A stretch of 25,633 nucleotides of DNA from positions 1 to 25,633 of IMG/VR virus record IMGVR_UViG_3300032282_002297; one strand, given 5' to 3'. Position numbers and translations under genes: made by a program. The notes under the pieces were generated by a model. It was not told the DNA's origin and searched no databases. It worked only from the letters and a program-made list of their open reading frames with translations. Numbering within the stretch: position 1 is the first letter of the stretch; every line of letters begins with the position of its first letter. This DNA comes from a virus. Positions 2 through 17,101 of this stretch are shown piece after piece.

Positions 2-298
2 TCAGGATCAAGCGGTTCATCTGGAACAAGTGGATCGTCTGGCACAAGTGGTTCGTCGGGTACAAGTGGAACCAGCGGTAGCAGTGGTACCTCTGGAACA
101 AGTGGTTCGTCTGGTAGCAGCGGCTCATCGGGAACAAGCGGTACAAGTGGAAGCAGCGGAACAAGTGGCACCAGCGGTTCATCTGGAACAAGTGGCTCGT
201 CTGGCACAAGTGGTACCAACGGAACAAGTGGAACCAGCGGCGGCAGTGGTACATCTGGAACCAGTGGATCATCTGGCACCAGTGGGACAAGTGGCGCG
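2..298 (+). repeat. Gly-Ser/Thr-Ser triplet repeat (collagen-like periodicity, no proline)
   Basis: About 33 consecutive Gly-x-y triplets, almost all GSS or GTS, encoded by varied synonymous codons. Single exceptions include GTN and GGS. Every third residue is Gly, as in collagen-like or polyglycine-II helices, but proline is absent. More than 60 Ser/Thr hydroxyls are exposed in one run. Such tracts in phage fibres act as shaft or linker and as sites for recombination between fibre tips. In this genome they are also a candidate glycosylation substrate (see findings). Confidence 0.9.
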
Positions 299-754
299 GG
301 AACAATAAATGGTGGAACATCAAACTATGTTGCAAGATTTACTGGAGCAACAACGCTTTCTACTGGTAGCATATATGACAATGGAACCAATGTAATCATA
401 ACAGGATCCTTGAATGTATCAGGTAGTATCAGTGACGCATATGGAGATCTAAGAACAGTTCCATTAAATTCAAAGACTTCTGGGTATACACTGCAGGCTT
501 CTGACACAGGAAGATTAATCAGTATCACGACTGGTGGAATAACTGTTCCAACCGCAGCTTTGTCTGCGGGTCAAGTAGTTACAATATACAATAATTCTTC
601 ATTGGATCAAACAATCACACAAGGTTCTGGTGCGACGATGTATTTGGCAGGAACTGCCAATATTGGAAATAGGACACTTGCGCAAAGAGGAATTGCATCT
701 GTCATTTGTGTGGGCACTAATACATTTGCAATAAGTGGAACGGGGTTGACATAA
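2..754 (+). CDS. Tail fibre / tail tip protein, C-terminal part (5' end outside window)
   Basis: The frame is open from base 2 to the TAA at 752-754, so the gene begins upstream of the window; the ATG at 410 is only an internal Met. The first 99 or so codons are an unbroken Gly-x-Ser/Thr triplet repeat. They are followed by a segment (NYVARFTG..., IYDNGTN..., GSLNVSGSI) of a kind I recognise from tail-fibre proteins of T4-like marine phages, and then by a beta-rich domain of about 100 residues (TLQASDTGRLI..., VTIYNNSS..., ending AISGTGLT). The likely role is host recognition or fibre shaft/tip structure on the virion. It sits directly before an adhesin-like polyglycine gene (6-nt gap), as fibre and adhesin genes usually do. 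The exact T4 counterpart cannot be named. The fibre assignment is fairly sure; the receptor is unknown. Confidence 0.75.
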   Translation, partial: SGSSGSSGTSGSSGTSGSSGTSGTSGSSGTSGTSGSSGSSGSSGTSGTSGSSGTSGTSGSSGTSGSSGTSGTNGTSGTSGGSGTSGTSGSSGTSGTSGAGTINGGTSNYVARFTGATTLSTGSIYDNGTNVIITGSLNVSGSISDAYGDLRTVPLNSKTSGYTLQASDTGRLISITTGGITVPTAALSAGQVVTIYNNSSLDQTITQGSGATMYLAGTANIGNRTLAQRGIASVICVGTNTFAISGTGLT

Positions 755-1998: not shown

Positions 1999-4900
1999 AT
2001 GGATATTTCTATAACCAACGTTAAGACTCATGTGTTTGGACCAAAGACTGAAGCTATTCGAGTAAAGAAGGCTTTGGATATACTGTCACATGACATGGAA
2101 ATAACAGAAAAGGTGGATGGAACCAAGCTGACGTTAGTGCGTACAGAGGCAAATGATGCTGATTATACAAAGAATTGGATCGTTGCATACAAGGGACAAA
2201 TTCTGTATGCCAAGGAGTTTGGACACATTTCAGATAAAGATAAGAAGGATATTACAAAGGTTTCGATTGGAAGAGCACAATATGTGTTGATATTTGATCA
2301 CTTGAAGAAGATTAATGGCAAGGTTGGATCAATACCATCAAATACAGAATTCAGCGTTGAGTTTGCTCAGAACAAAGACACGTTGACAAGAACATATGAA
2401 AATCTTGGTGGGATGTTTCTTAGAAGTTATGGCAAAGTAGAGTATAGAATTGTAGCAGGAAAGTTATACACTCAGGTTGTTGGTGAAGAAGTCACGGACT
2501 ATGTTTCCGTGAATAAAATGGCAAATTTACTTGAAATTGCCACATTCCCAGTAATGTTCAATGGGAAAGTAACTCAGGATAATATCAAGAACTATCCAAC
2601 CATAGCATCAAAGATGGCCGGCGTTGATTGGAAAAATCCGTTGGATGTATTGACCAAGTTTGAAGCCGCGATGCTTTCAATACAATCAACTCTTGGTGGA
2701 AAAACAGAAGGAGTTGTTCTTAAACTTGATGATGGTAGATTTTTCAAGTTCGTGCAAGCTGATCAATATGACACAGAAGCTGGTGCACGTGCGGAAAAAC
2801 AAGCAGCGTTGAAGATAGATCCAGAGGCAAAGACTCCATATTTTCAACTAATACGCAGTCTTATAAACAAGATATTCAAGGAAGTTGGCACAGAAGGTAA
2901 GACTGAAGAAGATATCATTTCAGACGTGAACTTCTATATAGCAAAGAATGACAAGTCCCTTGCAAAGTTCTTTAATGAGCTTATCAAGATTTCTGGTGGC
3001 AAGAGATCCGTTATGGGAGTCCGCGACGACATACATGATACAATCCGCACAATATTGGATAATGAAACATTGCTTACTCAGAACAAGAAGACTGTTGCTC
3101 TTATCCCAATGGGAGCAAAGCCATTTCACAAAGGGCACTTTGAACTAATCGAATTGGCGGCAAAGGAATGTGACAATGTGATTGTGTTTGGATCTCTAGC
3201 AGACAGAAAGGAAAAGGGAGAGTTTCCAATCAAAGGTGAGACATATCTCAAATTCTGGCATGATATGTTCATGCCAATATTACCAAAGAATGTACGCTTC
3301 AAGTTTGCTGACAAGCCAATATCGGCTGTTTATATGCAACTTCGTTGGTTTGAGCAAAGCTTTGTGCAAGACAAAGTTGCGCCACCTATTGTAAGAATAT
3401 ATTCCGACCCAGAAGATCTTAAAACCAATTGGTCAGATGATGTGTTTACAGATCCAAAACGTGGTGGATGTCCTACATTGTTTAATGCTGGAAAGATAGA
3501 AAAGAAAGAAGTGGCAAGAGGATCAAAAACCACGGACATAAGCGGAACAAAGATGCGTCAATTTCTTCAGAGTGGAGACAAAGAGTCTTTCATGAATAAT
3601 TTGCCGCCAGTGACAGATAAGCAGAAGGAAGAAATTTGGGATACTATCATTGCCAGCAAGCCAAAGGAAGTTAACGAAGTCAATCCATATGCCGCATTGG
3701 CAGAGACACTAATCAATGAAGTTGCGGCAGAATTACTTGGTGAAGGTGGTTGGAGAAATCCAACAACACAAGATTGGTCTGTAACACCAAAGATTGTTGC
3801 CAAGATAGATAGTGCAATGGATAAGTTTGTCTCTGCATTCAACGCATATTCAAAGTTACCTCCTATAAAGTCAAATGGTCCAGTAGGAAGCGGAACATAC
3901 TACAAAGATGATTTGAATGACCCAAACGCAAGTTATGGTGACGTAGATATACAACTTGTTCTTCCTGTAGAAAGCAATCTACGCCCAGATCAATTAGAAG
4001 CAAACAAGACATTCAGTGAAAAGATCCGCGAGTTTATCAAAGTAAAAAAGCCAAGTTATATCTATGCTGATCTAACCGATCCAGCATTCGGAATAGGATA
4101 TTTAATATTTGATATTGATGGTCGTAAGATACAAGTTGATCTTGTGCTTTCTTACACAGTGTCGGCAGATTGGACCAAGGTTCGTACAACTCCAGAAAAA
4201 GGATTAAAGGGATTTGTCACAGGAATGATGCTTAGTGCATTAAGTGAAACAATCAATGTTGTGCTAGGTTCTAGTACAAATCCATACATCAACACGTTGA
4301 ATGGTAAAGTTGTATCTTCCGCCACCAAGAAAGGTGCAGTACAGCACTTCTTGAAACCAAATGAAGTGTTTGCTGAAATTGCAAGATATTATGGCAAACT
4401 GGCCGGCGTGCAGAATGTGAATTTATCTGCATTGTCTGGATATCATGGGTTGGATCCACAAGACCCATCTCTAAAAAAGAAATGTGAAACCGTTGTTGCT
4501 TTGGCAAATGCGTTGGATCAGAACGGCATATTTGCCAAGAATGTGATAATAACCAAAGATGGCAAGGTCATCAAATCAAGAAAAGAATTTATAGATAACG
4601 TTTTAAATACCTTTATTGGTATGATGGAGCGTGCAAAAACAGCAAAGAAGTTAGAAAAAGCTCAAACACCAAGCGCTATGAAGACAATAGATAAAATAAA
4701 AGCAGATGCAGATCGTGGAATACAAATGGCAAAACAGATTTTGCGCGAATCTATCATGATGTTGATAGAGTCTGGTCAATCTGTTGCTGCTGTCGATGAC
4801 AAGACACCAAAGATGGTAAACGGCCAACCAGCACAAGCTACAACCAAGTTACGCATCGTTGATCCAAATGGTAAAGACATCAAGAATGCAGTTTCTACAG

Positions 4901-5943
4901 ATGTAAAAGAATTGGTGCATGCTCTAAACGGCAAGGTTCGTTTCTGGAAAAAAGACAGCCCATATATCGAGAACGGCTTCGTGTTCAACGGCAGTTCTCA
5001 GTATTTGATGAGCGGCGATGAAAAATACAAAGAGCTTTCAAAGTATAAGTCTTCATTTGGTGATATTGACGTTATTGTGCCAAAAGAAAAGCTAGATGCT
5101 ATGGAAGCATATCTAGACAGCATTGACGATAAGCAAGTAGATTGGAAACCAACGCCAAAGAACAAAGTAAGCAAGAACTTCTATTATGTTGGTCGCACAA
5201 AGAGCCAACGTGCACTTGCTGGTCAGACTGTAACACTTTGGTATTATGTGCCAACAAAGCAAGTTGTTCAAATTGACTTTGAAGGTGATGAAATGATCTT
5301 GGACCCACAAGGATATGAAAAGCCATCCGAATGGATCAAGTTCATCAAGGATTCACCATATACAGATCTTCAGTCTGGTATCAAGGGCTTGGCTGGTGCT
5401 ATTCTTCTTCGCGGATTGACACGTGCTGCAACAGCACTGCCAAACGCCGTGTATGTTACTAATACAACAGCAGCAAAGATTGAATCTGGTCAACTAAAAG
5501 GATTGGTCGATGCCAAGGGCAAGAGTGTTGTATCTGTTAATGCCACACATGCATTGCCAGCAGAATATACACTAAATACAAGTGGTTCTGGTTTCCAAGG
5601 TGTTCGTAAGGCATATCGCCTTGTTGCAAAGAACATGGACTATCAAGGCAAGAAGGTTGATGTTTATACCGACATTCCAACAAGCGAAAGCAAGCCAGAA
5701 GATCGTATCAATAGTGTATCGAAGGTATTTGAACTTATTTTCAAGCGCAAGCCTTCTGCCGATGACTTAGCAAACTTCAGAAGTTATGTTGGATTGCTAA
5801 AACTAATGAAGACACTGCCAAAAGATGTTCAAGTTAAAGCACTTGAACGTGCTAAGGAAGGCTTTGCTCAATCAGGTTTGGATCCCGCAGAATATGCTCC
5901 AATCCAAAAAGCAGCCAAAGCAACACTTGGAATATCCATATAA
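1999..5943 (+). CDS. Multidomain nucleotidyltransferase: ligase-type domain + HxGH domain + two Pol-beta-like domains
   Basis: A 1314-residue protein with four visible modules. Residues about 1-260 are a covalent nucleotidyltransferase (RNA-ligase type): motif I EKVDGTK with catalytic Lys38, motif III-like FSVEF near 118-122, motif IV EGVVLK at 237-242, motif V FFKF around Lys250. Residues about 360-540 are an NMNAT/cytidylyltransferase-like domain with HKGH at 377-380 and ISGTKMR at 514-520. Residues about 560-900 are a Pol-beta-superfamily domain: GSG at 630-632, D648-x-D650, probable third acid D714. Residues about 910-1200 hold a second one: GSS at 998-1000, D1022-x-D1024, third acid D1093. 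The last 110 residues are helical and unassigned. Likely roles are RNA repair or end-modification, with an adenylyltransferase step (NAD or nucleotide-sugar) as an option; substrates are unknown. It stands alone between a hairpin and promoter-like box upstream and a hairpin downstream. Confidence 0.8.
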   Translation: MDISITNVKTHVFGPKTEAIRVKKALDILSHDMEITEKVDGTKLTLVRTEANDADYTKNWIVAYKGQILYAKEFGHISDKDKKDITKVSIGRAQYVLIFDHLKKINGKVGSIPSNTEFSVEFAQNKDTLTRTYENLGGMFLRSYGKVEYRIVAGKLYTQVVGEEVTDYVSVNKMANLLEIATFPVMFNGKVTQDNIKNYPTIASKMAGVDWKNPLDVLTKFEAAMLSIQSTLGGKTEGVVLKLDDGRFFKFVQADQYDTEAGARAEKQAALKIDPEAKTPYFQLIRSLINKIFKEVGTEGKTEEDIISDVNFYIAKNDKSLAKFFNELIKISGGKRSVMGVRDDIHDTIRTILDNETLLTQNKKTVALIPMGAKPFHKGHFELIELAAKECDNVIVFGSLADRKEKGEFPIKGETYLKFWHDMFMPILPKNVRFKFADKPISAVYMQLRWFEQSFVQDKVAPPIVRIYSDPEDLKTNWSDDVFTDPKRGGCPTLFNAGKIEKKEVARGSKTTDISGTKMRQFLQSGDKESFMNNLPPVTDKQKEEIWDTIIASKPKEVNEVNPYAALAETLINEVAAELLGEGGWRNPTTQDWSVTPKIVAKIDSAMDKFVSAFNAYSKLPPIKSNGPVGSGTYYKDDLNDPNASYGDVDIQLVLPVESNLRPDQLEANKTFSEKIREFIKVKKPSYIYADLTDPAFGIGYLIFDIDGRKIQVDLVLSYTVSADWTKVRTTPEKGLKGFVTGMMLSALSETINVVLGSSTNPYINTLNGKVVSSATKKGAVQHFLKPNEVFAEIARYYGKLAGVQNVNLSALSGYHGLDPQDPSLKKKCETVVALANALDQNGIFAKNVIITKDGKVIKSRKEFIDNVLNTFIGMMERAKTAKKLEKAQTPSAMKTIDKIKADADRGIQMAKQILRESIMMLIESGQSVAAVDDKTPKMVNGQPAQATTKLRIVDPNGKDIKNAVSTDVKELVHALNGKVRFWKKDSPYIENGFVFNGSSQYLMSGDEKYKELSKYKSSFGDIDVIVPKEKLDAMEAYLDSIDDKQVDWKPTPKNKVSKNFYYVGRTKSQRALAGQTVTLWYYVPTKQVVQIDFEGDEMILDPQGYEKPSEWIKFIKDSPYTDLQSGIKGLAGAILLRGLTRAATALPNAVYVTNTTAAKIESGQLKGLVDAKGKSVVSVNATHALPAEYTLNTSGSGFQGVRKAYRLVAKNMDYQGKKVDVYTDIPTSESKPEDRINSVSKVFELIFKRKPSADDLANFRSYVGLLKLMKTLPKDVQVKALERAKEGFAQSGLDPAEYAPIQKAAKATLGISI

Positions 5944-5948
5944 TAAAT

Positions 5949-5979
5949 TGCGCTCTGATGTATTAACACTATGAGCGCA
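5949..5979 (+). other. GC-rich inverted repeat after the nucleotidyltransferase gene
   Basis: TGCGCTC (5949-5955) and GAGCGCA (5973-5979) are perfect inverted repeats around a 17-nt AT-rich loop, 5 nt past the stop codon. This is the most GC-rich stem in a local AT-rich gap. No T-run follows, so it is not a standard intrinsic terminator; RNA processing, mRNA 3'-end protection or a protein site are possible. Confidence 0.4.
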
Positions 5980-6003
5980 TATATATGATAAAGGTTATAT
6001 AAT

Positions 6004-6618
6004 ATGAAGAATACAGACATCATTAGGTCATATCTCGCAGGAGAGCGTCCATATATCAAAGTTGGTTATACCGGCGACAAGGATAAATACATCATTCGCA
6101 AAGTTGGTGAAAGATGGACAGACAACAATGGAAAAGAATGGGAACAGAAAGACTATGGTCCAGTAGCTGTTACCAGAGTGTCTGACATCATAAGAGAGGA
6201 AATGAACCAAAAGTGCGAATGCTGCAAGCGAGAGATACGATGGGGATCAAGGCACGACCAAAAGATGTATTATAAGACCAAGAAATGCTTTGATTGCCTC
6301 ATTGATGAAGAAACCCAACTTAGAGTAAAGGGCCAATTCAAGTTATATGAAACCAAAAAATTATTGGAAAACGAGTTGTCTTACTTGAATGATGTTCGTG
6401 CGAAATTGAAGGAAAGTAAAGAATATCTTGAAACACACAAGGAATTACAATTTCCAAACGGAAATGGAACAATGGAAGTTTGGAGCAATGATGCCAGAGC
6501 AGAATTGTTGGAAGGCGTAAAAAAAGATTTTGTTACATGCCTCAAGAAGATCAAAGCCGGTGAGAAGGAATTGAAAAAAGTAAATGATCTTGTTGCCGAA
6601 GTATTGAAAAATAAATAA
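6004..6618 (+). CDS. Four-cysteine zinc-ribbon-like coiled-coil protein, unknown function
   Basis: A 204-residue protein that I do not recognise. It has an N-terminal basic segment, then C71-x-x-C74 and C95-x-x-C98 (an extra Cys at 73), spaced like a zinc ribbon or knuckle. After that come about 100 residues of charged helix (EETQLRVKGQFKLYETKKLLENELSY... is a likely coiled coil) ending in a Lys-rich tail. No signal peptide or membrane segment is visible. The upstream gap has AAAGG 9 nt or more before the ATG, at best a weak ribosome site. The gene lies between the nucleotidyltransferase gene and the glycosylation operon, 42 nt before the first glycosyltransferase ATG. A nucleic-acid-binding role is possible from the Cys pattern alone. 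Confidence 0.7.
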   Translation: MKNTDIIRSYLAGERPYIKVGYTGDKDKYIIRKVGERWTDNNGKEWEQKDYGPVAVTRVSDIIREEMNQKCECCKREIRWGSRHDQKMYYKTKKCFDCLIDEETQLRVKGQFKLYETKKLLENELSYLNDVRAKLKESKEYLETHKELQFPNGNGTMEVWSNDARAELLEGVKKDFVTCLKKIKAGEKELKKVNDLVAEVLKNK

Positions 6619-6660
6619 TTTGTATTGACAGATATAAATTTGGTTATATCGTGTGAGAGA

Positions 6661-8796
6661 ATGAGCAATTTAAATGTTTTTGGTCACACTTCTTATATTG
6701 GGACAAATGGTATAAATGCGCATTTTAGGCACTTCTACCGAGAGTTATCTGCGCATTGTAATGTCAAGATAAGAAACTTTACAATAGGCAGTACTTGGAA
6801 AGGACTAAGTGCAGAGCCTCATAACAATGAGCAATATATCAATGATGTTGACAAGAAGCTGCTACAACATCAAACGCTGTGGACAAATGGAAAGAGGGTA
6901 GACTATCCTATATACAATCAGTATACTGGCTCATTTGATGTCAACATAGTATCTGATATAGTCGATCATTATTACTATTACGATAGTTATCTTCAGCCAA
7001 GCGTTGCGTACACGGTGTGGGAGTCAACAAAGCTATATTCCAATTTCTTCAATCGTCTCAAGCAATTTGAAGAAGTATGGGTACCAAGCTCATGGCAAAA
7101 AGATTGCATGGTCAATCAAGGGTTTGATAGTAATAAGATACAAATAATGCCCGCTGGTGTAGAAGATGAAATATTTTTCCCAGAAGATGTATCGTATGAT
7201 GAATATTATTCAGACGGTCGGTTCAAGTTCGTAGTGTTTGGAAGATGGTGCTTTAGAAAATCCACGAAAGAACTTGTAGAAACATTCCTAAAGACGTTTG
7301 ATAAGTCCGAACCAGTTGATATCATCATATCTGTTGATAACAGCCATCCAGATGACAATCTTAAGAGTACCGAAGAAAGACTAAAGCATCATGGACTTGA
7401 TGATCCTCGAGTAAAGATTGTACATCACGCTTCCAGAAAAAATTATGTGAAATTTATCAAGAAGGGTCATGTGTTCTTGTCATGTTCACGCGGAGAAGGA
7501 TGGAACCTACCGTTAATAGAAGCAATGGCGGCAGGAACGCCATCCATATACTCAAAGTGCTCTGGTCAGTTGGAGTTTGCAGAAGGCAAGGGCCACCCAG
7601 TTGACATAATCGGCACAACTCAAAGTATCATGGGAGATGGTGGAGACTATTATCAACCAGACTTTGATCATTTGTCCAAGGTAATGAGGGATGTATATGC
7701 AAATTACTCAGCATACAAGCAGAAGGCATTACAAGAGTCCGAAGAAATCAGAAAGAATTTTTCGTGGAAGAGAATAGGAGAAATCGGATCCGAGAAAGTG
7801 CACTCGTTTGCTAAAAGATATAGCAGAAAAATCAACGAGAACAAATCAAAACTGAAAGTGCTGTGTGTTACGCCGCATCTATCGACCGGAGGTGCACCAC
7901 AATATCTATTGAAGAAGATTGAACTTCTCAATGAAGATCATGATGTATATTGCGTTGAATACAATCAAATCGCAACCTTATACGTTGTACAAAGAAACAA
8001 GATCAAGAACATCTTGAAAGAAAAGTTCTATAGTCTTCAAGATCGCCCAAAGGAAGATCTGTTGGATATAATCCAAAGCATTGGTCCAGACGTTATTCAT
8101 TTCGAGGAATTTCCAGAAACTTTCATGGCAAAGCATATTGCCGAGCAGATATACAAGAAACAAAGAGACTACCTTCTATTTGAAACATCTCATGGAATAT
8201 ATTTCAAACAGGATGAAAAGATTTATTACCCCGACAAGTTTTTGTTTGTGTCGGAATACCAAGCCGATCTTTATAAGCAATATAATGTTCCTTGTGAAAT
8301 TATAGAATATCCCGTTGAAATATATACACCAGACAAGCAGAAATACAGAAAAGAATTGAACTTTGAGGATGGTTATAAGCATATCATCAATGTCGGCTTG
8401 TTTACTCCGGGAAAAAATCAAATGGAATTGGTAGAGTATGCAAGACTGCTACAGGATAAAAATGTAAAAGTACACTTTATAGGAAATCAGGCTGGTAATT
8501 TTGAAAATTATTGGAAGCCTATAATGAAGACATTGCCCAGTAATTGTGTGATTTGGGGAGAGCGTGATGATGTGGAAAAATTCTATCAGGCTGCGGATTT
8601 GATGGTATTTACTTCCATAATGGAGTGCTCACCAATTGTTATACGCGAGTCAATAAGTTGGCAGCTGCCATGTTTCATACACAATTTGCCAGCATATAAA
8701 AACATGTATAATAAATACAAGTCTGTGAAATTCTTGACCAGAGCAAGCTTTGAACAAAATCTGAACATGATAAAGAAAGAATTGAATATAACATGA
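6661..8796 (+). CDS. Tandem GT4-type glycosyltransferase (two GT-B domains)
   Basis: A 711-residue protein from ATG 6661; a TTG at 6625 would add 12 residues but places the first Rossmann strand unusually far in. The first GT-B unit (about 1-390) starts NVFGHTSYIGTNG, has a KFVVFGRW strand opening the C-lobe, and carries the GT4 nucleotide-sugar motif E-x7-E (E279 to E287 in RGEGWNLPLIEAMAAG). The second unit (about 400-711) restarts with KLKVLCVTPHLSTGGAP, has INVGLFTPGKNQ, and has a second E-x7-E (E655 to E663 in MECSPIVIRES). Two retaining transferases in one chain suggest two successive sugar additions or one catalytic and one helper domain. Its stop overlaps the next start (ATGA). There is no membrane segment, so it is cytoplasmic. 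It is probably the glycan-extending enzyme of the operon; donor and acceptor are unknown. Confidence 0.85.
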   Translation: MSNLNVFGHTSYIGTNGINAHFRHFYRELSAHCNVKIRNFTIGSTWKGLSAEPHNNEQYINDVDKKLLQHQTLWTNGKRVDYPIYNQYTGSFDVNIVSDIVDHYYYYDSYLQPSVAYTVWESTKLYSNFFNRLKQFEEVWVPSSWQKDCMVNQGFDSNKIQIMPAGVEDEIFFPEDVSYDEYYSDGRFKFVVFGRWCFRKSTKELVETFLKTFDKSEPVDIIISVDNSHPDDNLKSTEERLKHHGLDDPRVKIVHHASRKNYVKFIKKGHVFLSCSRGEGWNLPLIEAMAAGTPSIYSKCSGQLEFAEGKGHPVDIIGTTQSIMGDGGDYYQPDFDHLSKVMRDVYANYSAYKQKALQESEEIRKNFSWKRIGEIGSEKVHSFAKRYSRKINENKSKLKVLCVTPHLSTGGAPQYLLKKIELLNEDHDVYCVEYNQIATLYVVQRNKIKNILKEKFYSLQDRPKEDLLDIIQSIGPDVIHFEEFPETFMAKHIAEQIYKKQRDYLLFETSHGIYFKQDEKIYYPDKFLFVSEYQADLYKQYNVPCEIIEYPVEIYTPDKQKYRKELNFEDGYKHIINVGLFTPGKNQMELVEYARLLQDKNVKVHFIGNQAGNFENYWKPIMKTLPSNCVIWGERDDVEKFYQAADLMVFTSIMECSPIVIRESISWQLPCFIHNLPAYKNMYNKYKSVKFLTRASFEQNLNMIKKELNIT

Positions 8797-11309
8797 AATA
8801 CCAATTAATTAGCAGCTATACACAAACGTCAATAAATCCAAAGGACATTGGGGATTTTCGCAATTCCATAGACATCACATTCAGAGATGGTGCCAAGGTT
8901 GAAATCACTGGACAAGCGGATGAAGAATATGAGATAAACTTTGTAAATGGAGATACAAATCAAAGCATTTATGGCACGCGCATACGCAATAATATGTGGT
9001 GTTCTCCCACACAAAAGCATTATGTGAATTGGAGAGTTGAAGTACGCCGTAACGGTGGGTTGATCAAGCAGGAGATCTTTTCTCTGAAGGACAAGAAGGT
9101 AAAGATTGTAATGGACACTCAAAGTATGGGCGACATCATTGCATATATCGGCGCAGTTGAGGCATTCAGAAAGAAGCATGGCTGTCAGATGAATTGCGTG
9201 ATATTCAATGCAGACGTTCGTAAGATAATGGAAAACAGCTATAAAGATATAAATTTTCTTGCAATAAATGAAAGAGATGAGGAATTTTATGCCGTATACA
9301 AGCTTGGATTTTTCAATGATTGGCAAGGTAGACTTCCAGAAAGTGCACAGAGTATGTCTTTGGCAGACATTGCTGGTAGTATTCTTGGCTTTGGTCAGTT
9401 GGAATTCAAGCCTACACTTGAGTTCAATAGAACAAAGAAGAAGAACGCAAAGAAGTATGTATGCATAAGCACTCAAAGTACCGCGCAATTCAAGTATTGG
9501 AATAATCCAAAGGGATGGAGTGAAGTGATAAAGTATCTGAATAACATCGGGTATGAGGTTTGGTGCATAGACAGATACAACACATTTGGCCACCCAGCAT
9601 CAAATATGATGAACACCATGCCGGCGGGTGCAATAGACAAGACTGGTGAAGTTTCTTTGCAGGAGCGAATGGAACAGATATATAACGCAGAGTTCTTTAT
9701 TGGTCTAAGCTCTGGACTATCTTGGTTAGCTTGGGCGGTTGGAGTTCCAGTGATAATGATCAGCGGCATTGGAAAAAAATGGACAGAATTTTTCACCCCA
9801 TACAGACTGATCAATGAGAATGTATGCAATGGTTGCACAAATAATCCAGAATATCCATTCAATAAAGCGGAGTGGGCTTGGTGTCCAACAAAGAAGAACT
9901 TTGAGTGTACAAAGGAGATTTCATCAGAAATGGTCATCTCGTGTATCAACGACATAATCAATGGAAATGCCAATTTATCGTCATTTGATTGGGGCACTCA
10001 CCAATCCACGAAACAAAAATTCAATCTATATCAGGAATTCTTCGCAACTGGAAAGACAATCTATGAAGATCTATTTGATGTGGAAGAAGGCGATGTGGTT
10101 GTTGATATCGGTGCTCATATCGGCGCATTTTCATATGCAATCAGAAATAAGAAGCCGAGTAAGATCGTAGCAGTTGAGCCAAGTTCAATACGTCACGCCA
10201 CTTTGAAGAAAAATCTGGAAGGACTTCCCGTCACATATATCAAGAAAGGAATTGATGCCACCAATCAGAAGATAACAAATGGCTTGGAATTTGACGGCAT
10301 TGTTGAAGATTTGGAGATAACAACATTCCAAGACTTGGTGAAAGAAAACAATCTTACTCACATTGATTTTCTCAAAGTTGACTGCGAAGGAGGAGAATAT
10401 TCAATTCTCGATGAAAAGAATATTGATTGGGTACTTGCAAATGTAAAAAAGATATCTGGTGAATGGCACTTGGGAAACAAGCAGAGAAAAGAACAATTTA
10501 GAAAGTTTAGAGACACATATCTGAAGAAGTTCAAGAAATATTCCGTATATGCCATCAATGGAGTTGATATCAAATGGGATCTGTTTAATGACCACTTCAT
10601 TGAATTTTATAATGAAGTCATCATTCATATAGACAACCGCGAAGGATTGGTTCAACCGATAGAGACAAATGGGATGTCTGTTCTCATCACGGGCGCATCT
10701 GGTGGGTTGGGTAAATCCTTGGAACAATGTGCTACTTCTCGTGGCATAAAGAACATCGGACAAGGAAACAAGAATGCCAACAAATCTATCAAGTGTGACT
10801 TTACTGATATATCCCAAGTATACAGCATGGAAAAGTATATTGTTGATAATAATATCAACTGTCTTATCAATAATGCTGGCGTATACAACAACAAGCCGAT
10901 TGTGGACATGAGTGATGTTGAAATACAGAATATAATAAACATCAATCTGCTTACTCCTATTCTGCTATCAAAGTATCTGTATAAGCACCTAACAAACACA
11001 AATCAAAAAGGATATATTGTAAATATCAATTCATTGGCTGGAAAGTACCCGAATTATAATGAGGCTGTATATTGTGCTTCTAAATATGGACTGACTGGTT
11101 TGGGCGCTTCACTTTCTATAAATCAAAAGAATTCGCGTATAAAAATAATAGACATACATGTTGGTGCAATGAAGACAGCAATGACATCAAATCGCCCAAA
11201 TCACAACGATTTGATAGATCCAAATGAAATTTCTAATTTTATATTTGACTTGTTGCAGTCGAACTGCGAATATATAACTTCTTCAATTGAAATAAGAAAT
11301 ACTAAATGA
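8793..11309 (+). CDS. Fusion: TibC-type O-heptosyltransferase + FkbM methyltransferase + short-chain dehydrogenase
   Basis: A single 838-residue frame. Residues 1-400 match the autotransporter strand-loop-strand O-heptosyltransferase (TibC/Aah, BAHT) family: the opening SSYTQTSINPKDIGDFRNSI..., the beta-barrel-like N-lobe, and C345-x2-C348-x15-C364-x7-C372, which fits the family's four-Cys iron-finger. These enzymes move heptose from ADP-heptose to Ser on proteins. Residues about 405-620 are an FkbM-type SAM methyltransferase (DIGAHIG 438-444, then LKVDCEGGEYSIL), which usually O-methylates sugars. Residues 628-838 are a classical SDR: TGASGGLG 633-640, NNAG 693-696, Ser747, Y760-x3-K764. An in-frame ATG at 10674 could also start the SDR separately. 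The gene overlaps its neighbours by 4 nt on both sides (ATGA). Domain calls are strong; substrates are inferred. Confidence 0.88.
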   Translation: MKYQLISSYTQTSINPKDIGDFRNSIDITFRDGAKVEITGQADEEYEINFVNGDTNQSIYGTRIRNNMWCSPTQKHYVNWRVEVRRNGGLIKQEIFSLKDKKVKIVMDTQSMGDIIAYIGAVEAFRKKHGCQMNCVIFNADVRKIMENSYKDINFLAINERDEEFYAVYKLGFFNDWQGRLPESAQSMSLADIAGSILGFGQLEFKPTLEFNRTKKKNAKKYVCISTQSTAQFKYWNNPKGWSEVIKYLNNIGYEVWCIDRYNTFGHPASNMMNTMPAGAIDKTGEVSLQERMEQIYNAEFFIGLSSGLSWLAWAVGVPVIMISGIGKKWTEFFTPYRLINENVCNGCTNNPEYPFNKAEWAWCPTKKNFECTKEISSEMVISCINDIINGNANLSSFDWGTHQSTKQKFNLYQEFFATGKTIYEDLFDVEEGDVVVDIGAHIGAFSYAIRNKKPSKIVAVEPSSIRHATLKKNLEGLPVTYIKKGIDATNQKITNGLEFDGIVEDLEITTFQDLVKENNLTHIDFLKVDCEGGEYSILDEKNIDWVLANVKKISGEWHLGNKQRKEQFRKFRDTYLKKFKKYSVYAINGVDIKWDLFNDHFIEFYNEVIIHIDNREGLVQPIETNGMSVLITGASGGLGKSLEQCATSRGIKNIGQGNKNANKSIKCDFTDISQVYSMEKYIVDNNINCLINNAGVYNNKPIVDMSDVEIQNIININLLTPILLSKYLYKHLTNTNQKGYIVNINSLAGKYPNYNEAVYCASKYGLTGLGASLSINQKNSRIKIIDIHVGAMKTAMTSNRPNHNDLIDPNEISNFIFDLLQSNCEYITSSIEIRNTK

Positions 11310-12319
11310 GAGCCGCAATACTTGTTAAAAAGAATGAACCGTTGGTAGTAGATGAAATACATCTTCCAGTAAATTTGGAATATGGCCAAGTGTTGGTAAA
11401 GATACTTGTCAGCGGTTTGTGTGGCGCACAATTACAAGAGATTGCAGGATTGAAGAACAACGAAAAGTTCATGCCACATCTTGTTGGCCATGAAGGTTGC
11501 GGGTTGGTTGAAAAGGTTGGAGCAGGAGTATCAAAGGTAAAGGTCGGAGACAAAGTTGTATTACATTGGAGAAAAGGTTCTGGAATAGAAGCTAATTTCC
11601 CACAATACAATTGGAACGGAAGACAAATGTCTGGCGGCAAGATCACCACTTTATCTGAGTATTCTGTTGTATCCGAGAATAGAATGACAAAGATAGACCA
11701 AGACATTGGCAATGACTTTGCTGCACTTCTTGGTTGTGGAATATCAACTGGCTTTAGTGTTATAAACAAAGATGCAAATGTAAAGTTTGGAGAAAGTGTT
11801 CTTGTTATTGGCTGCGGTGGAGTCGGACTAAACTGCATCTATGCTTCCAAGATGTCTCATGCGTCCGTAGTCGGCATTGATATCAACAAAGACAAAAAGA
11901 AGTTGGTAGAAAAGAACGGCGGTGTATTTTATACTCTTGATGAAATCGAGACTGTAAAGAGCATGAAGTTTGATTGTATTGTGGACACCACGGGTGTGCT
12001 TGAACTTGTGTCTTCTGTATTGCCCACAATGTCAGAACAAGGCAGATGTATACTTGTAGCACAGCCAAAGATTGGTTCTCAGTTATCCATCAACAACCCA
12101 ACGAGATTATTTTCTACAAATGGACAAACTATAAGAACCACACAAGCGGGTGGATTTGATCCAGACGTAGACATTCCAAGATATATAAAGTTATATAAAA
12201 ATAATCAAATTGATGTAGAAACTCTTATCACCGATAGATATGATCTAAACGATATCAATTTGGCAATAACAAAGCTAAAGTCGGGAACGGCAGGTAGAAT
12301 AATGATCAATATATGCTAA
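11306..12319 (+). CDS. Zinc-type medium-chain alcohol dehydrogenase (MDR) of sugar-biosynthesis type
   Basis: A 337-residue MDR enzyme. The N-terminal GroES-like domain has GLCGAQ with the catalytic-zinc ligand Cys39, then GHE with H62 and E63. The Rossmann domain carries GCGGVG at 169-174 and an acidic residue after beta2 (VVGIDIN), pointing to NAD(H). The four-Cys structural zinc lobe of classical alcohol dehydrogenases is absent: the VVLHWRKGSG region has no CxxCxxC. From memory, similar proteins starting MRAAIL...PLVV sit in LPS/capsule loci next to split transketolases. It likely oxidises or reduces a sugar or sugar-phosphate hydroxyl. It overlaps the fusion gene by 4 nt and the transketolase gene by 7 nt, so translation is probably coupled. 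Confidence 0.85.
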   Translation: MRAAILVKKNEPLVVDEIHLPVNLEYGQVLVKILVSGLCGAQLQEIAGLKNNEKFMPHLVGHEGCGLVEKVGAGVSKVKVGDKVVLHWRKGSGIEANFPQYNWNGRQMSGGKITTLSEYSVVSENRMTKIDQDIGNDFAALLGCGISTGFSVINKDANVKFGESVLVIGCGGVGLNCIYASKMSHASVVGIDINKDKKKLVEKNGGVFYTLDEIETVKSMKFDCIVDTTGVLELVSSVLPTMSEQGRCILVAQPKIGSQLSINNPTRLFSTNGQTIRTTQAGGFDPDVDIPRYIKLYKNNQIDVETLITDRYDLNDINLAITKLKSGTAGRIMINIC

Positions 12320-13038
12320 ACGAACGCTCAAAACAAATTAGACGAGATTTATACCATCTCTCCAAAGCAAACGGCGGCTATCATTACGGTGGCACCTTTT
12401 CTACAATAGAAATTCTAATTGCTCTATATGATACAGTATTGAAGAAGGATGACAAATTTATATTAAGCAAAGGACATGCATGTTGGGGATATTATGTATT
12501 GCTTCGTGAGAAAGGATATAATCCATTTCTTGAAGGACATCCTCATTTGGATTTGGCAAATGGAATACATTGGACAACAGGTAGTGAAGGTCATGGAGTT
12601 CCAGCGGGTCTTGGAATGGCATTTGCCAAGAAGAAAATGAACAAGAAGGGACGAGTGTATGTTATCGTTGGAGATGGTGAATGCCAAGAAGGTACAACAT
12701 GGGAAAGTCTATTGTTAGGAGGATACCACAAGGTAAACAACCTAACCGTAATCATGGATAATAACAAAATCCAAGGGTCTGGATATGTGAATGACATTCT
12801 TCCAGTAAATCATATGAAGACTGTTGCCGAGTCTTGTGGATGGGCTGTTACAGAGATTGATGGACATGAAAATCTGCAAATTCTAACCGCACTTCAAGCA
12901 CAATACGACAAGCCTCACTTCATCATTGCAAACACAGTGAAGGGTAAAGGTGTTGACTTTATGGAAAACAAGCCAGCATGGCACTCAAAGTGGCCAAATC
13001 CAACAGAAGAAGCGGAAATTATAAAACAACTTTCATAA
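12313..13038 (+). CDS. Transketolase-like protein, N-terminal (thiamine-diphosphate binding) subunit
   Basis: A 241-residue protein equal to the first domain of transketolase. The thiamine-diphosphate/Mg signature is complete: G120-D-G122, then N150-N151 after 27 residues, with ECQEG directly following GDG. The substrate-side SKGHA (H55) and TTGSEGHG (90-95) motifs are present. In the latter, Glu92 replaces the more usual Leu. Transketolase moves two-carbon ketol units between sugar phosphates and yields sedoheptulose-7-phosphate or its reverse. Split two-gene forms are common in bacteria and in polysaccharide loci. The partner domain follows after one base. Start ATG 12313 overlaps the dehydrogenase stop. 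A pentose-phosphate or heptose-precursor function is inferred from the neighbours. Confidence 0.88.
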   Translation: MLNERSKQIRRDLYHLSKANGGYHYGGTFSTIEILIALYDTVLKKDDKFILSKGHACWGYYVLLREKGYNPFLEGHPHLDLANGIHWTTGSEGHGVPAGLGMAFAKKKMNKKGRVYVIVGDGECQEGTTWESLLLGGYHKVNNLTVIMDNNKIQGSGYVNDILPVNHMKTVAESCGWAVTEIDGHENLQILTALQAQYDKPHFIIANTVKGKGVDFMENKPAWHSKWPNPTEEAEIIKQLS

Positions 13039-13039
13039 T

Positions 13040-13522
13040 ATGAGAAAAGCATTTGGAAAAACAATCGTTGATCTTGGAAAAAAAGATCCTAATCTTTTCC
13101 TACTCACAGGAGATGTGGTGCAGGAAATGGATGAGTTCAAGAAGCTATATCCAGAAAGATTTTACAACTTGGGATTGTGTGAACAATCTATGATCAGCAT
13201 GGCGGCAGGTATGTGCCTTGAAGGCGCACGCCCAGTCGTATATTCTATCACCCCATTCCTATTGGAGCGTCCATTTGAGCAGATAAAGATAGACATTGAT
13301 GAACAATGTCTGCCAGTTATCTTGGTCGGGTTTGCCGATTATCCCACACACGGACCAACCCACCGTCCATTGAATGCCGAGGGCATGTCCAAGTTGTTCA
13401 AGAACATTGTCAGCTTCTTCCCAAGAAATGGTGAAGAAACCGAAAGATCAATGATAGAAGCATATTTGCTCAGAAAACCCGCTCTTATTTGTCTAAAGAA
13501 AGATGGCAAACACCTCCTCTAA
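13040..13522 (+). CDS. Transketolase-like protein, pyrimidine-binding subunit lacking the C-terminal domain
   Basis: A 160-residue protein matching the central (Pyr) domain of transketolase, the half that grips the aminopyrimidine of thiamine diphosphate. NLGLCEQSM holds the expected catalytic Glu (E48), followed by MAAGMCLEGARPVVYSI. The THGPTHRP segment (around 105-112) matches the family's His-containing loop. Stand-alone C-terminal subunits usually run about 300 residues with a third domain; this one stops after LICLKKDGKHLL, so that domain is missing. No frameshifted remnant follows, since the next gene is a methyltransferase. The third domain is not part of the catalytic centre, so an active minimal enzyme with the 12313 partner is plausible. 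Confidence 0.82.
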   Translation: MRKAFGKTIVDLGKKDPNLFLLTGDVVQEMDEFKKLYPERFYNLGLCEQSMISMAAGMCLEGARPVVYSITPFLLERPFEQIKIDIDEQCLPVILVGFADYPTHGPTHRPLNAEGMSKLFKNIVSFFPRNGEETERSMIEAYLLRKPALICLKKDGKHLL

Positions 13523-13523
13523 A

Positions 13524-14312
13524 ATGGTAAAGAAATTCTTCAATTCTATCAAGATATACGATGTTGGATACAACAGAGTACGTCTTGGCAATAAACGCGA
13601 TGGAGGATATGTCGTATTGGATGAAATATGCCAAAAATCCAAAGTGATGTATTCTTACGGAATAAGTGATGATATATCATTTGAGGAAGACTTCTACAGC
13701 AAATATCCAAATAACAAAATTCGTTTATTTGATCACACCATAAATGGCATCAATACAAATAATCCAGATTTTCACTTTGTAAAGGAAGGATTGGCTGCAG
13801 ACAAAGGTCCAAATCTAAATACGTTGGAAAATCATATGGATCATTTCGGTGATACATTCGTTCCAAACAAGACCCTCAAAATTGACATTGAGTGGAATGA
13901 ATGGGATTTCTTCGAGAAACTCAGCATCAAAACATTGCAGGGGTTTGATCAGATATTGTGCGAGTTTCATACTGTTCCTGTGTTATATAAGGACTCTCAT
14001 AGTCCATACTTCACGGGCTTTCATAAGCAAGTATACAACAATATCAACGAGTTAATGTTCAAGAGATACAAGGATATAATGGAAAAGATAACAAAGTATT
14101 ATTTGCCATTTCATGTTCATATCAACAACTCTATCCAACCCGTGGATGTCAACGGTATGTCTATTCCTTCTTTGGTTGAACTAAGTTTGGTAAACCGCAG
14201 CTTGGTCAAAAATTATAGTTTATCCAAAGATAAATACCCAATCGATGGTTTGGATTATCCAAACAAAACAGATAGACCAGATTACTTAAACTTCAAATGG
14301 AACGATGAATAA
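13524..14312 (+). CDS. FkbM-family-like methyltransferase
   Basis: Start ATG 13524 lies one base after the previous stop. An ATG at 13503 would add 7 residues but overlap the transketolase frame. The 262-residue product shows the RLGNKRDGGYVVLDE motif, the YSYGISDDISFEEDF motif I equivalent, and LKIDIEWNEWDFF in place of the usual IDIEGxE; the Gly after Glu is replaced by Trp. This pattern fits the FkbM/Methyltransf_22-like group that methylates sugar hydroxyls with SAM. It is the second methyltransferase of the operon, alongside the FkbM domain in the 8793 fusion, so the final sugar may carry two methyl groups. It overlaps the kinase gene by 8 nt. Confidence 0.75.
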   Translation: MVKKFFNSIKIYDVGYNRVRLGNKRDGGYVVLDEICQKSKVMYSYGISDDISFEEDFYSKYPNNKIRLFDHTINGINTNNPDFHFVKEGLAADKGPNLNTLENHMDHFGDTFVPNKTLKIDIEWNEWDFFEKLSIKTLQGFDQILCEFHTVPVLYKDSHSPYFTGFHKQVYNNINELMFKRYKDIMEKITKYYLPFHVHINNSIQPVDVNGMSIPSLVELSLVNRSLVKNYSLSKDKYPIDGLDYPNKTDRPDYLNFKWNDE

Positions 14313-15036
14313 AACTATTTTAGTCATAGGAGATAGCTGTAGGGACGTGCATGTATATTGCACCGCTAATAGAATGTGCCCAGATAAACCCGTGCCTATT
14401 CTTAAGATTGTTGATCAGAACGACAACCCCGGCATGGCAAAGAATGTATACAGAAATATCAAGACCATGATTGATGGCTGTGATATCATGACCAATCCAA
14501 ATTGGTACAACATAACAAAGACCAGATATGTTCATAAATCAACAAATCATATGTTCTTTAGATTAGACTCTGCCGAGGAAATCAAAAGAATAAACATAGA
14601 CAAAGTTGATTATGATTATGATCATATCGTGGTGTCTGATTACGATAAAGGATATTTGACAGAAGAAGACATACAGACCATTGCTGAAAACCATGACTCG
14701 GTGTTTCTTGATACCAAGAAGATACTTGGTCCTTGGGCAAACAAGGTAAAGTTTATCAAGATCAATAATCATGAATATGCTCGCTCTGCCAATCATATAA
14801 CGCCAGTAATGGCAAATAAGATAATACAAACCAGCGGAGCAGATGGTTGTTACTATCTTGGAGAAAAATATCCAGTAGAACAACAGGACGTTATAGACGT
14901 ATCTGGCGCAGGTGACTCATTCTTGGCAGGACTTGTTATAGAATACTCAAAGAGCAATGACATCATATCTGCCATCAAGTTTGCGAATGAATGTGCCAGC
15001 AAGGTTGTAAAACAACGCGGAGTTTCTGTCATATAA
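14305..15036 (+). CDS. PfkB-family sugar kinase, HldE/RfaE kinase-domain-like
   Basis: A 243-residue ribokinase-fold protein. The N-terminus (ILVIGDSCRDVHVYC...CPDKPVPIL, then NPGMAKNV) follows the heptose-7-phosphate kinase half of HldE (RfaE domain I) and related phage kinases. VSGAGDSFLAG holds G201-A-G-D204 with the catalytic Asp. HldE kinase domains are usually near 310-320 residues, so this copy is compact, with shortening in the region around residues 50-110 (lid and substrate side). HldE's adenylyltransferase half is not fused; an HxGH domain exists elsewhere in the window (1999 gene). Likely reaction: phosphorylation of a heptose or other sugar phosphate. It is the last gene of the glycosylation operon, followed by a 36-nt AT-rich gap. 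Confidence 0.78.
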   Translation: MNKTILVIGDSCRDVHVYCTANRMCPDKPVPILKIVDQNDNPGMAKNVYRNIKTMIDGCDIMTNPNWYNITKTRYVHKSTNHMFFRLDSAEEIKRINIDKVDYDYDHIVVSDYDKGYLTEEDIQTIAENHDSVFLDTKKILGPWANKVKFIKINNHEYARSANHITPVMANKIIQTSGADGCYYLGEKYPVEQQDVIDVSGAGDSFLAGLVIEYSKSNDIISAIKFANECASKVVKQRGVSVI

Positions 15037-15072: not shown

Positions 15073-15471
15073 ATGGACCTTAAAGGTATAATTCCCAAAG
15101 CCAATTTGATACTCGGAATAGCCGAGAGAATTCGTAATAAATACCCTAATCCAAATGGAGCATGCGAGTTAATGGCAAAGGATTTGGTCAAGGCTTTAAC
15201 TCGCGACGGCATATATGCCAAGCATGTTGTTGGTAATTTCAGATTAGACGAGCCAGATGCCGAGAAATATATGGCATGTGATGATTGGGATAATCAAGAC
15301 GAATATAATGTAAACCACGATTGGGTGGAAATTGAAGGCAAGATATTGGATATATCAGCTTCGCAGTTTAAAAAGAGCGTATATGAGAATATACCAGATA
15401 TAGTATATATAGATTATAAGAGCCCGCTGTATATCAGATATGAAAGAGTAAACTATTATGGCGGAAAGTAA
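15073..15471 (+). CDS. Small transglutaminase/papain-like fold protein
   Basis: A 132-residue protein from ATG 15073, the first ATG; TTG 15067 is possible but unneeded. C31 opens a helix (GACELMAKDLVKAL), followed by a beta segment (GIYAKHVVGNFRL), then NHDWVEIEGKILDISASQF with H82 and D93. The Cys-His-Asp order, the His before Trp-Val-Glu and the ILD spacing are those of transglutaminase-core and related papain-like domains. This is a fold call from pattern, not a close family match. It overlaps the terminase gene by 14 nt, so it is cotranscribed with g17. It could crosslink, cleave or amidate a virion protein or act on cell wall, or be inactive. Confidence 0.6.
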   Translation: MDLKGIIPKANLILGIAERIRNKYPNPNGACELMAKDLVKALTRDGIYAKHVVGNFRLDEPDAEKYMACDDWDNQDEYNVNHDWVEIEGKILDISASQFKKSVYENIPDIVYIDYKSPLYIRYERVNYYGGK

Positions 15472-17101
15472 GACAAAAAATCTCAAGGATGTAATCAAAG
15501 AAGAGTACATCAAGTGTGCCAAGGATCCTATATACTTCATGAAGAAGTATGTTAAGATCCAACATCCTACTCGCGGCACGTTGCCATTCCTTACATATCC
15601 ATTCCAAGACAAAGCACTTGAAGACTTCGTAACTCATAATCAGAATATTATTCTCAAGAGTCGTCAGATGGGTATCACAACACTTGTTGCTGGATATAGC
15701 ATGTGGTTGATGACGTTCCATAATGACAAGCAGATATTGTGCTTGAGTATCACACAAGAAACATCCAAGGCGATTGTTACTAAAGTTAGATTTGCCAATG
15801 AAAATTTGCCAAGTTGGCTCAAGGTTCCTGCGGTAGAAGATAACAGATTGTCATTGAAGCTTAAGAATGGGTCAGAAATCAAAGCCGCATCAAGTGCTGG
15901 AACATCTGGTCGTTCGTCTGCATTGTCTCTACTCGTAGTGGACGAAGCTGCATTCATTGATAACATTGAAGAAATCTGGCTATCATCTCAATACACACTG
16001 TCTACTGGTGGTAAAGCAATCATTCTATCTACTCCAAATGGTGTAGGTAATTGGTTCCATAAGATGTGGACAGAGTCTGAGGCTGGTCTGAATGATATGA
16101 ACCGTATCAGTTTGCCTTGGCAACTTCATCCAGAGCGCGATCAAAAGTGGAGAGATGAACAAACCAAACTATCTGGAGAAAAAGGTGCAGCACAAGAATG
16201 TGATTGTGAATTCAGCACATCTGGTAACACAGTCATTGATATTCCTATTCTTGAATGGTATGGAAAAACTCATGCAATTGATCCATTGGAAAAGCGAGGC
16301 TTTGACAAAGGACTATGGATGTTCAAGTATCCAGAAGCTGGAAAGAGTTATATGGTAAGTGCCGACGTTGGTAGAGGCGATGCAGCAGACTTTAGCGCGT
16401 GCCAAGTTATTGAAATAGAAAGCATGGAACAAGTTGCAGAATATAGAGGAAAAATTCCAACAAAAGATTATGCTAGATTGCTCATGACAATCTCGACTGA
16501 ATATAATCAAGCATTACTTGTTATAGAAAATGCAAATATTGGATGGGCGGTAATACAAGAAGTATTAGACAATAACTACCTAAATCTATTTTATAGTTCT
16601 GCAGATCTACAGTATGTTGATGCCGAAGAGCAAACAACAAACAAGATAAACGCAGAAGAACGCAAAATGAAACCGGGCTTTACCACGTCCAACAAGAGCA
16701 GACCACTTCTTATATCAAAACTCGAAAGTTACTTTAGAAACAAAGAGGTTATAGTACATAGCAAGCGACTGCTTGAAGAATTGAATGTATTTATCTGGAA
16801 AAGCACAGGAACGGTATCTGCAAAGGCAGAAGCCATGAGTGGCTATAATGATGACCTCGTAATGTCATTGGGTATTGGATTATGGATCAGAGATGTTGCA
16901 TTAAGATTAAGAAAAGAAGCAGATGCGTCTACTCGCACAATTCTTGATAGAATTGGATCAACATCAAGTCAACAGATTAAGAATAATAGCCAAGCTTTAT
17001 ATAAGAATAATGTATTTGGTACACAACCAAATCCGTGGCAAATGCATGTTGGTGGTCCAGGGTCACAACAGAAACCAATCGATTTAACTTGGTTATTGTG
17101 A
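15458..17101 (+). CDS. terL: Terminase large subunit (T4 gp17-like)
   Basis: A 547-residue two-domain packaging motor. The ATPase half has KSRQMGITT at 67-75 as a deviant Walker A: the usual P-loop Lys position is Ile73 and a Lys stands at the start (K67), as in lambda-type terminases. LLVVDEAAF gives Walker B D162 and E163. STPNG (about 190) is the coupling motif. The nuclease half opens with SADVGRGDAADFSA (D303), then VIENANIGW, and ends with GYNDDLVMSL, giving the acidic RNase H-like triad. It powers DNA entry through the portal encoded just downstream and cuts the concatemer. No small terminase (g16) is recognisable upstream. The leader shares AAACTATTATG with g22. Confidence 0.95.
   Translation: MAESKTKNLKDVIKEEYIKCAKDPIYFMKKYVKIQHPTRGTLPFLTYPFQDKALEDFVTHNQNIILKSRQMGITTLVAGYSMWLMTFHNDKQILCLSITQETSKAIVTKVRFANENLPSWLKVPAVEDNRLSLKLKNGSEIKAASSAGTSGRSSALSLLVVDEAAFIDNIEEIWLSSQYTLSTGGKAIILSTPNGVGNWFHKMWTESEAGLNDMNRISLPWQLHPERDQKWRDEQTKLSGEKGAAQECDCEFSTSGNTVIDIPILEWYGKTHAIDPLEKRGFDKGLWMFKYPEAGKSYMVSADVGRGDAADFSACQVIEIESMEQVAEYRGKIPTKDYARLLMTISTEYNQALLVIENANIGWAVIQEVLDNNYLNLFYSSADLQYVDAEEQTTNKINAEERKMKPGFTTSNKSRPLLISKLESYFRNKEVIVHSKRLLEELNVFIWKSTGTVSAKAEAMSGYNDDLVMSLGIGLWIRDVALRLRKEADASTRTILDRIGSTSSQQIKNNSQALYKNNVFGTQPNPWQMHVGGPGSQQKPIDLTWLL

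Follow-up and report, generated by a model that had tools for sequence, protein, structure and literature searches.

A TibC-type O-heptosyltransferase gene and a candidate protein-glycosylation operon in an environmental tailed phage

The operon and its heptosyltransferase domain

The DNA analysed here, hereafter called the window, is the whole IMG/VR virus record IMGVR_UViG_3300032282_002297 (25,633 bases) and thus a genome fragment. The source virus is a large tailed phage of environmental origin. Seven open reading frames (ORFs) on the + strand, at 6661-15036, form a tight operon that includes a TibC-type O-heptosyltransferase domain; the junctions between successive frames are -4, -4, -7, +1, -20 and -8 nt. 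The flanks are T4-like: an ORF resembling tail fibres precedes the operon, and genes for terminase, portal and head protease follow downstream. A seven-gene, same-strand operon joined by overlaps or a 1-nt gap within a T4-like virion block had been proposed in the original prediction, and coordinates, junctions and flanking genes all agree with it. Domain matches of the seven ORFs (Pfam, NCBIfam) were far beyond chance, with Methyltransf_22 as the only exception. The features are as follows.

2..754, + strand: tail-fibre-like protein with PHROG tail fibre/collagen-like matches, 5' end cut off by the end of the record; proposed acceptor of the heptosyltransferase
6661..8796, + strand: tandem glycosyltransferase family 4 (GT4) protein, GT4a in the N half and GT4b with 'HLSTGG.PQYLLKKIE' in the C half (Pfam/PHROG)
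8793..9990, + strand: TibC/Aah-family (BAHT) O-heptosyltransferase domain (TIGR04414, PDB 4rap, conserved residues)
10050..10590, + strand: FkbM-type methyltransferase domain in the same polypeptide as TibC (PF05050, 4.9e-11)
10668..11309, + strand: short-chain dehydrogenase/reductase (SDR) oxidoreductase domain with YxxxK, also in the TibC polypeptide (PF00106, 2.3e-28)
11306..12319, + strand: zinc-type (MDR) dehydrogenase (ADH), phrog_2640, 52% identical to that of P-TIM68 and 51% to that of S-SM2
12313..13038, + strand: transketolase-like subunit binding thiamine pyrophosphate (TPP), the PP subunit (PF00456, 2.1e-25; the split transketolase 6yak is the closest solved structure)
13040..13522, + strand: transketolase-like pyrimidine (PYR) subunit, 160 aa (PF02779 only)
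13503..14312, + strand: putative methyltransferase of Methyltransf_22 type, a companion of the transketolase pair (PF13383, 1.9e-05; alignment of 11 homologues)
14305..15036, + strand: short HldE/HldA-like PfkB kinase, phrog_8133 (rfaE_dom_I, Foldseek)
15458..17101, + strand: large terminase (context), 53% to Microcystis phage Mel-JY01 and 51% to Flavobacterium phage immuto

The N-terminus of ORF 8793-11309 had been assigned to the heptosyltransferase family, and the assignment was upheld. Residues 25-388 matched TIGR04414 with 335.2 bits (cut-off 200, E 4.5e-100), the domain matched PDB 4rap (E. coli TibC) with E 4.4e-67, and every known active-site residue was retained. In TibC the catalytic base is Asp110, the sugar is bound by Thr226, Lys230, Arg286 and Trp305, and four cysteines form an iron finger (PMC4358343). 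The window counterparts, all kept, are D114, T230, K234, R292, W311, C345, C348, C364 and C372. The stereoselectivity position of TibC (residue 300) is Ser306 in the window, which is Aah-like; most other viral copies have Gly here. Aah accepts both ADP-D,D- and ADP-L,D-heptose, and by analogy the phage enzyme may do the same.

A profile scan found TibC relatives in at least 494 other viral stretches. Among 68 distinct viral relatives, D110, W305 and all four iron-finger cysteines were each present in 68/68 and K230 in 66/68. The viral genes lie in virion blocks, typically in the order giant fibre, 'HLSTGG.PQYLLKKIE' GT4, second GT4, TibC and tail sheath. The LSTGG-type GT4 of these loci corresponds to the C-terminal half of window ORF 6661-8796; of 90 viral loci, 59 had it no more than 4 kb away from TibC, and it was found in none of 99 kinase-only loci, a control that is biased by genome position. 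Known phage records with a TibC match numbered only four, two of them with identical match coordinates. As far as found, the occurrence in phages of this enzyme family, known hitherto from bacterial adhesins, is new, and the open-access literature yielded no description of an O-heptosyltransferase from a phage or of its link to Gly-Ser/Thr fibres. Separately, TibC relatives with intact active sites were seen in two huge phages (735 kb, LR756501; 636 kb, LR756504; loci L009 and L010). Viral TibC often lies within very large multidomain proteins with FkbM and GT4 fused (L119-L130, L144, L147), and some proteins of this type carry two TibC-like segments.

Association of viral TibC genes with Ser/Thr-rich fibres

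No autotransporter adjoins TibC within the window; a Gly-Ser/Thr-Ser fibre is present there instead. ORF 2-754 contains 33 G-X-Y triplets, encoded by bp 5-301, of which 18 are GTS and 12 are GSS, and Ser or Thr occupies 62 of the 66 X/Y positions. For comparison, 80 tail-sheath neighbourhoods were inspected, a triplet run being defined as at least 8 triplets. Such runs occurred in 13 of the 30 tail-sheath loci with TibC and in 1 of the 50 without (Fisher p 4e-6, a value that is too small because the contigs are related to each other, although the direction is clear). A manual count over the listed contigs longer than 9 kb gave 13/19 with TibC and 1/21 without. Two of the 13 TibC-linked runs are poor in Ser/Thr. 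The tail-sheath control was chosen because the kinase-only control was biased by genome position, and the fibre association still held. Chance was rejected as its origin on this persistence, with the reservation that related contigs are not independent. The fibre of ORF 2-754, which the original prediction overlooked, is on sequence grounds the probable acceptor of the window TibC domain, and its repeats would be the glycosylated part. Directly after the triplet fibre, the window encodes a 276-aa protein with poly-Gly tracts (760-1590) that has the look of a phage adhesin.

Attachment of the sugar to phage DNA was also considered. T4-like phages are known to glycosylate their DNA, but such a use is very improbable here: no hydroxymethyl-pyrimidine synthesis gene was seen in the fragment, enzymes of the TibC family modify Ser residues of proteins, and the gene is located in a virion block.

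The sugar module of kinase, dehydrogenase and split TPP enzyme

The last gene of the operon had been described as an HldE-like kinase rather than another PfkB enzyme, and both sequence and predicted fold place it nearest HldE/HldA, although below the family cut-off. Its score against rfaE_dom_I (TIGR02198) was 99.8 bits and that against ribokinase 38.8, so that HldE is the best family by far. Foldseek ranks 1-7 of the kinase model were all HldA (E 2.7e-17, versus 1.3e-12 for the next match), and the invariant motifs are retained in an alignment whose rows were viral contigs, cyanophage rows being excluded. The phrog_8133 kinase occurs in 31 phage records, nearly all of them from cyanophages or marine viruses. 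In 46 of 88 distinct viral kinase loci, homologues of an HldE-II-like nucleotidyltransferase, a HAD-type phosphatase, a cupin and an HldD-like epimerase lie within 6 kb. These neighbours would represent the adenylyltransferase, GmhB-like (HAD), GmhA-replacing (cupin) and HldD-like steps; for cupin and HAD the role is our inference. Loci L068 and L069 share the window order of SDR, ADH, both transketolase subunits, Methyltransf_22-like gene and kinase, followed by epimerase, nucleotidyltransferase and cupin genes; the HAD gene is immediately next in L069 and about 1.4 kb further on in L068. A Pelagibacteraceae locus (L200) carries in a single run GmhA-like, Methyltransf_22-like, kinase, ADH, transketolase-pair, SDR, HldE-II-like and HldD-like genes, its GmhA having been assigned to the locus via contig-coordinate conversion.

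Fifteen kinase loci with ADH, the window clade included, are without nucleotidyltransferase, HAD and cupin genes. They would suit a scavenged remnant, in which the ADH-transketolase-kinase block derives from a larger captured cluster and has no coherent role, so that only GT4 and TibC matter. This is quite unlikely: the reading frames are all intact and tightly overlapped, the kinase has its invariant motifs, and the block is conserved, with 67-88% protein identity in L013 and 66-85% in L016. A small conserved gene upstream of the GT4 gene (window 6004-6618) lies downstream of the kinase in L013 (8895-9503) and in L014, and this changed position suggests that the operon was inserted or shuffled as a block.

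The SDR-ADH-TPP enzyme-kinase unit recurs in phages and is adjoined in cyanophages by the HldE-II-like, HAD, cupin and HldD-like genes; the window SDR domain is homologous to the stand-alone SDR gene that precedes ADH in P-TIM68. In cyanophages the 'LPS' (lipopolysaccharide) genes T4-GC 304-308 were reported to co-occur with unknown role (PMC3037559), PfkB kinases, cupins and HIGH nucleotidyltransferases of jumbo phages were ascribed to surface-sugar synthesis (PMC7824862), and pelagimyophages were reported with rfaE (PMC7029224). A published account relevant to a phage heptose/transketolase module was not found in the open-access literature. Two S-SM2 annotations are probably in error: HAD phosphatase families are what its 'phosphoheptose isomerase' matches, and one 'putative nucleotidyltransferase' (T4-GC 307) belongs to the cupins, the likely misannotations concerning T4-GC 306/307 of P-SSM2 (L005) and S-SM2 (L002). 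The module's presence within LPS-like clusters of S-SM2, P-SSM2 and P-TIM68, the position of its cellular relatives in polysaccharide-type clusters, and the preference of published authors for O-antigen change (PMC3037559, PMC7824862, PMC7029224) would all accord with a remodelling of the host surface, in which the operon makes a modified heptose and puts it on host LPS or a surface protein of the infected cell, so that superinfection is blocked; such a role has been proposed for the LPS gene clusters of cyanophages and pelagiphages. This is unlikely for the present operon, however, because the substrates of the TibC family are proteins and not LPS, viral TibC genes have fibre genes on one side and tail-sheath genes on the other and are associated with Ser/Thr-rich fibres, and the window is without a lipid-linked glycosyltransferase or O-antigen polymerase.

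The two transketolase-like subunits had been proposed to yield sedoheptulose-7-phosphate. A canonical transketolase of this kind is contradicted by the lack of a C-terminal domain and by the replacement of the acceptor-site Asp. The TPP motifs of the pair are present (GDGECQEG...DNN, and the catalytic Glu of EQ). The window PYR subunit ends at 160 aa without a C-terminal domain, and its phage relatives are nearly all 158-170 aa long. The acceptor-site Asp of transketolase (G-E-D-G-P-T-H motif) is His104 in 16/16 phage sequences, and a DYPTHGPTHRP-type motif is invariant among phage PYR relatives. Cellular relatives of the subunit, found among others in Pelagibacteraceae, Chlorobiaceae and Ignavibacteriales, mostly have Leu, Gln or His at this position. 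In a sister phage (L039), a single unrelated E1-like TPP protein replaces the transketolase pair and the Methyltransf_22-like gene at the same spot; its ADH, kinase and terminase are 81%, 82% and 79% identical to those of the window, and the span of ADH, kinase, terminase and portal 79-85%. The E1-like form is also found in S-SM2 and P-TIM68, so the two forms seem to be interchangeable. Cellular transketolase pairs without the C-terminal domain (L204-L252) commonly adjoin epimerases and a nucleotidyltransferase-kinase fusion of reversed domain order, and aminotransferase-like genes were seen beside them in L204 and L223. These gene sets apparently constitute an uncharacterised surface-sugar pathway in Pelagibacter and others.

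The swap between ADH and kinase in L039, the His at the acceptor site (Leu or Gln in cellular relatives), and the epimerases and apparent aminotransferases beside many cellular relatives would also fit a branched-sugar route, in which the TPP enzyme and ADH add a two-carbon branch to a nucleotide-linked keto sugar and the product is not a simple heptose. That route is possible but rather doubtful; the kinase and its usual neighbours fit phospho-heptose steps better than modification of a nucleotide sugar, and gmhA lies within the same run in L200. Ketol transfer to an aldose phosphate is favoured, as both TPP forms could use hydroxypyruvate-type two-carbon donors.

The sixth gene had been described as a second FkbM-like enzyme. 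Instead, ORF 13503-14312 has a weak Methyltransf_22 match (24.8 bits, cut-off 22.4) and not an FkbM one. Its model (pLDDT 88) is predicted to have a methyltransferase-like fold, the best structural matches being O-methyltransferases with weak, low TM-scores.

GmhA, GmhB and HldD had been noted as missing from the window, and domain scans of this fragment record indeed found none. The HIGH-type domain of a 1314-aa protein (window 1999-5943) was considered as the missing heptose adenylyltransferase and rejected: it gave no match to the phage HldE-II profile and resembles NMN/cytidyltransferase families. The same protein has an RNA-ligase-like N-terminus (this and the HIGH-type domain by weak Pfam, NCBIfam and PHROG matches) and, by eye, two stretches resembling Pol-beta-type nucleotidyltransferase motifs; an immuto protein from a comparable region is annotated as NadR-like. 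The steps absent from the window adjoin relatives of the operon elsewhere, as GmhA-like, HldE-II-like, HldD-like, HAD and cupin genes. Scans for promoters, terminators, tRNAs and Rfam RNAs in the window returned no hits and nothing above shuffled controls.

Proposed function and comparison with known systems

On balance, the operon is probably a phage-encoded protein-glycosylation system, in which TibC heptosylates the phage's own fibre and the TPP/kinase module supplies a precursor. The TibC domain would transfer an ADP-heptose-type sugar onto Ser/Thr hydroxyls, most likely those in the Gly-Ser/Thr-Ser repeats of ORF 2-754. The two GT4 domains may extend or vary the fibre glycan, and the FkbM, SDR and Methyltransf_22-like enzymes may trim or methylate it. 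The ADH, two-subunit TPP enzyme and HldE-like kinase would form a conserved module for making the sugar. A heptulose-type precursor most likely arises when the TPP enzyme adds a two-carbon unit, and the kinase would act on a heptose phosphate derived from this precursor, a direction of flux that is likewise inferred. Isomerase, phosphatase, adenylyltransferase and epimerase would be contributed by the host or encoded by phage genes beyond the fragment. More tentatively, and with less than even confidence, a widespread cassette of environmental phages may be envisaged, in which TibC densely decorates Gly-Ser/Thr-Ser fibres and the sugar of this clade is a phage-made derivative, two-carbon extended by interchangeable TPP enzymes. 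Taken as a whole, the original prediction keeps its TibC membership and HldE-like kinase; a canonical transketolase and a second FkbM enzyme are not supported.

Several observations weigh against protein glycosylation of the fibre by this route. The triplet fibre is found in only about half of the viral TibC loci, many of whose contigs are short, and the repeat could have another purpose; known BAHT acceptors are beta-helical autotransporters and not G-X-Y repeats. Arg286, mutation of which impairs TibC, is kept in just 44/68 viral relatives. The kinase falls below the NCBI HldE cut-off (99.8 versus 345 bits), the TPP enzyme is without canonical transketolase features, and an enzyme that strictly synthesises sedoheptulose-7-phosphate sits badly with the E1-like swap seen in L039. 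Searches with Pfam, NCBIfam and the phage HldE-II profile found no adenylyltransferase, epimerase, isomerase or phosphatase of the pathway in the window, the record being a fragment. An adenylyltransferase is absent, too, from the contigs of the closest relatives and from the complete Mel-JY01 genome, where some records have weak generic epimerase matches at most; ADP-heptose or its precursor is therefore probably supplied by the host in the window clade.

Phage virion glycosylation has been documented in few systems, and the 'LPS' sugar genes of phages, known from cyanophages since 2010, have no agreed function (PMC3037559). The present case brings together an enzyme family of solved biochemistry, a specific repeat as proposed acceptor and a precursor module of defined make-up. 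The resulting hypothesis is directly testable and covers hundreds of viral contigs, one cultured isolate included. If it is true, virus particles would join bacterial adhesins as substrates of protein O-heptosylation; it also points to a sugar pathway, as yet uncharacterised, in cells such as Pelagibacter, on which phages draw.

Compared with bacterial TibC/Aah (TIGR04414; PDB 4rap, 4rb4; PMC4358343), the window enzyme has the same whole-domain match and the same active-site and iron-finger residues, but it is phage-encoded, shares its polypeptide with FkbM and SDR domains, has GT4 enzymes as partners and is without an autotransporter. HldE/HldA (TIGR02198; PDB 4e84) is the best family and structural match of the kinase, which shares the GAGD and KTR...N..RxD motifs, whereas the phage protein is shorter by some 70 residues, scores under the family cut-off and has no fused adenylyltransferase. 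The split transketolase of Carboxydothermus hydrogenoformans (6yak) likewise has separate PP and PYR subunits (PP match 1.2e-42); the window PYR subunit differs in having no C-terminal domain and His for the acceptor-site Asp. Cyanophages P-SSM2, S-SM2, P-TIM68 and S-CAM1 ('LPS' genes, T4-GC 304-308; PMC3037559) have phrog_8133 kinases 35-58% identical to that of the window, and S-SM2 and P-TIM68 share its ADH-TPP enzyme-kinase order; these cyanophages differ in their E1-like TPP enzyme and their HldE-II-like, HAD, cupin and HldD-like genes, and no TibC relative was found in the four. No near-identical known phage was found for the window, and the nearest terminases are those of Mel-JY01 and then immuto. 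In Mel-JY01, a gene annotated 'methyltransferase FkbM' (4750-8430) encodes GT4 and TibC in a single 1226-aa protein, whereas the window has them in separate ORFs, and Mel-JY01 lacks the kinase, ADH and transketolase module. Its GT4/TibC gene precedes the terminase, as in the window, at the equivalent place in the genome, and Mel-JY01 shares with the window a Gly-Ser/Thr triplet fibre.

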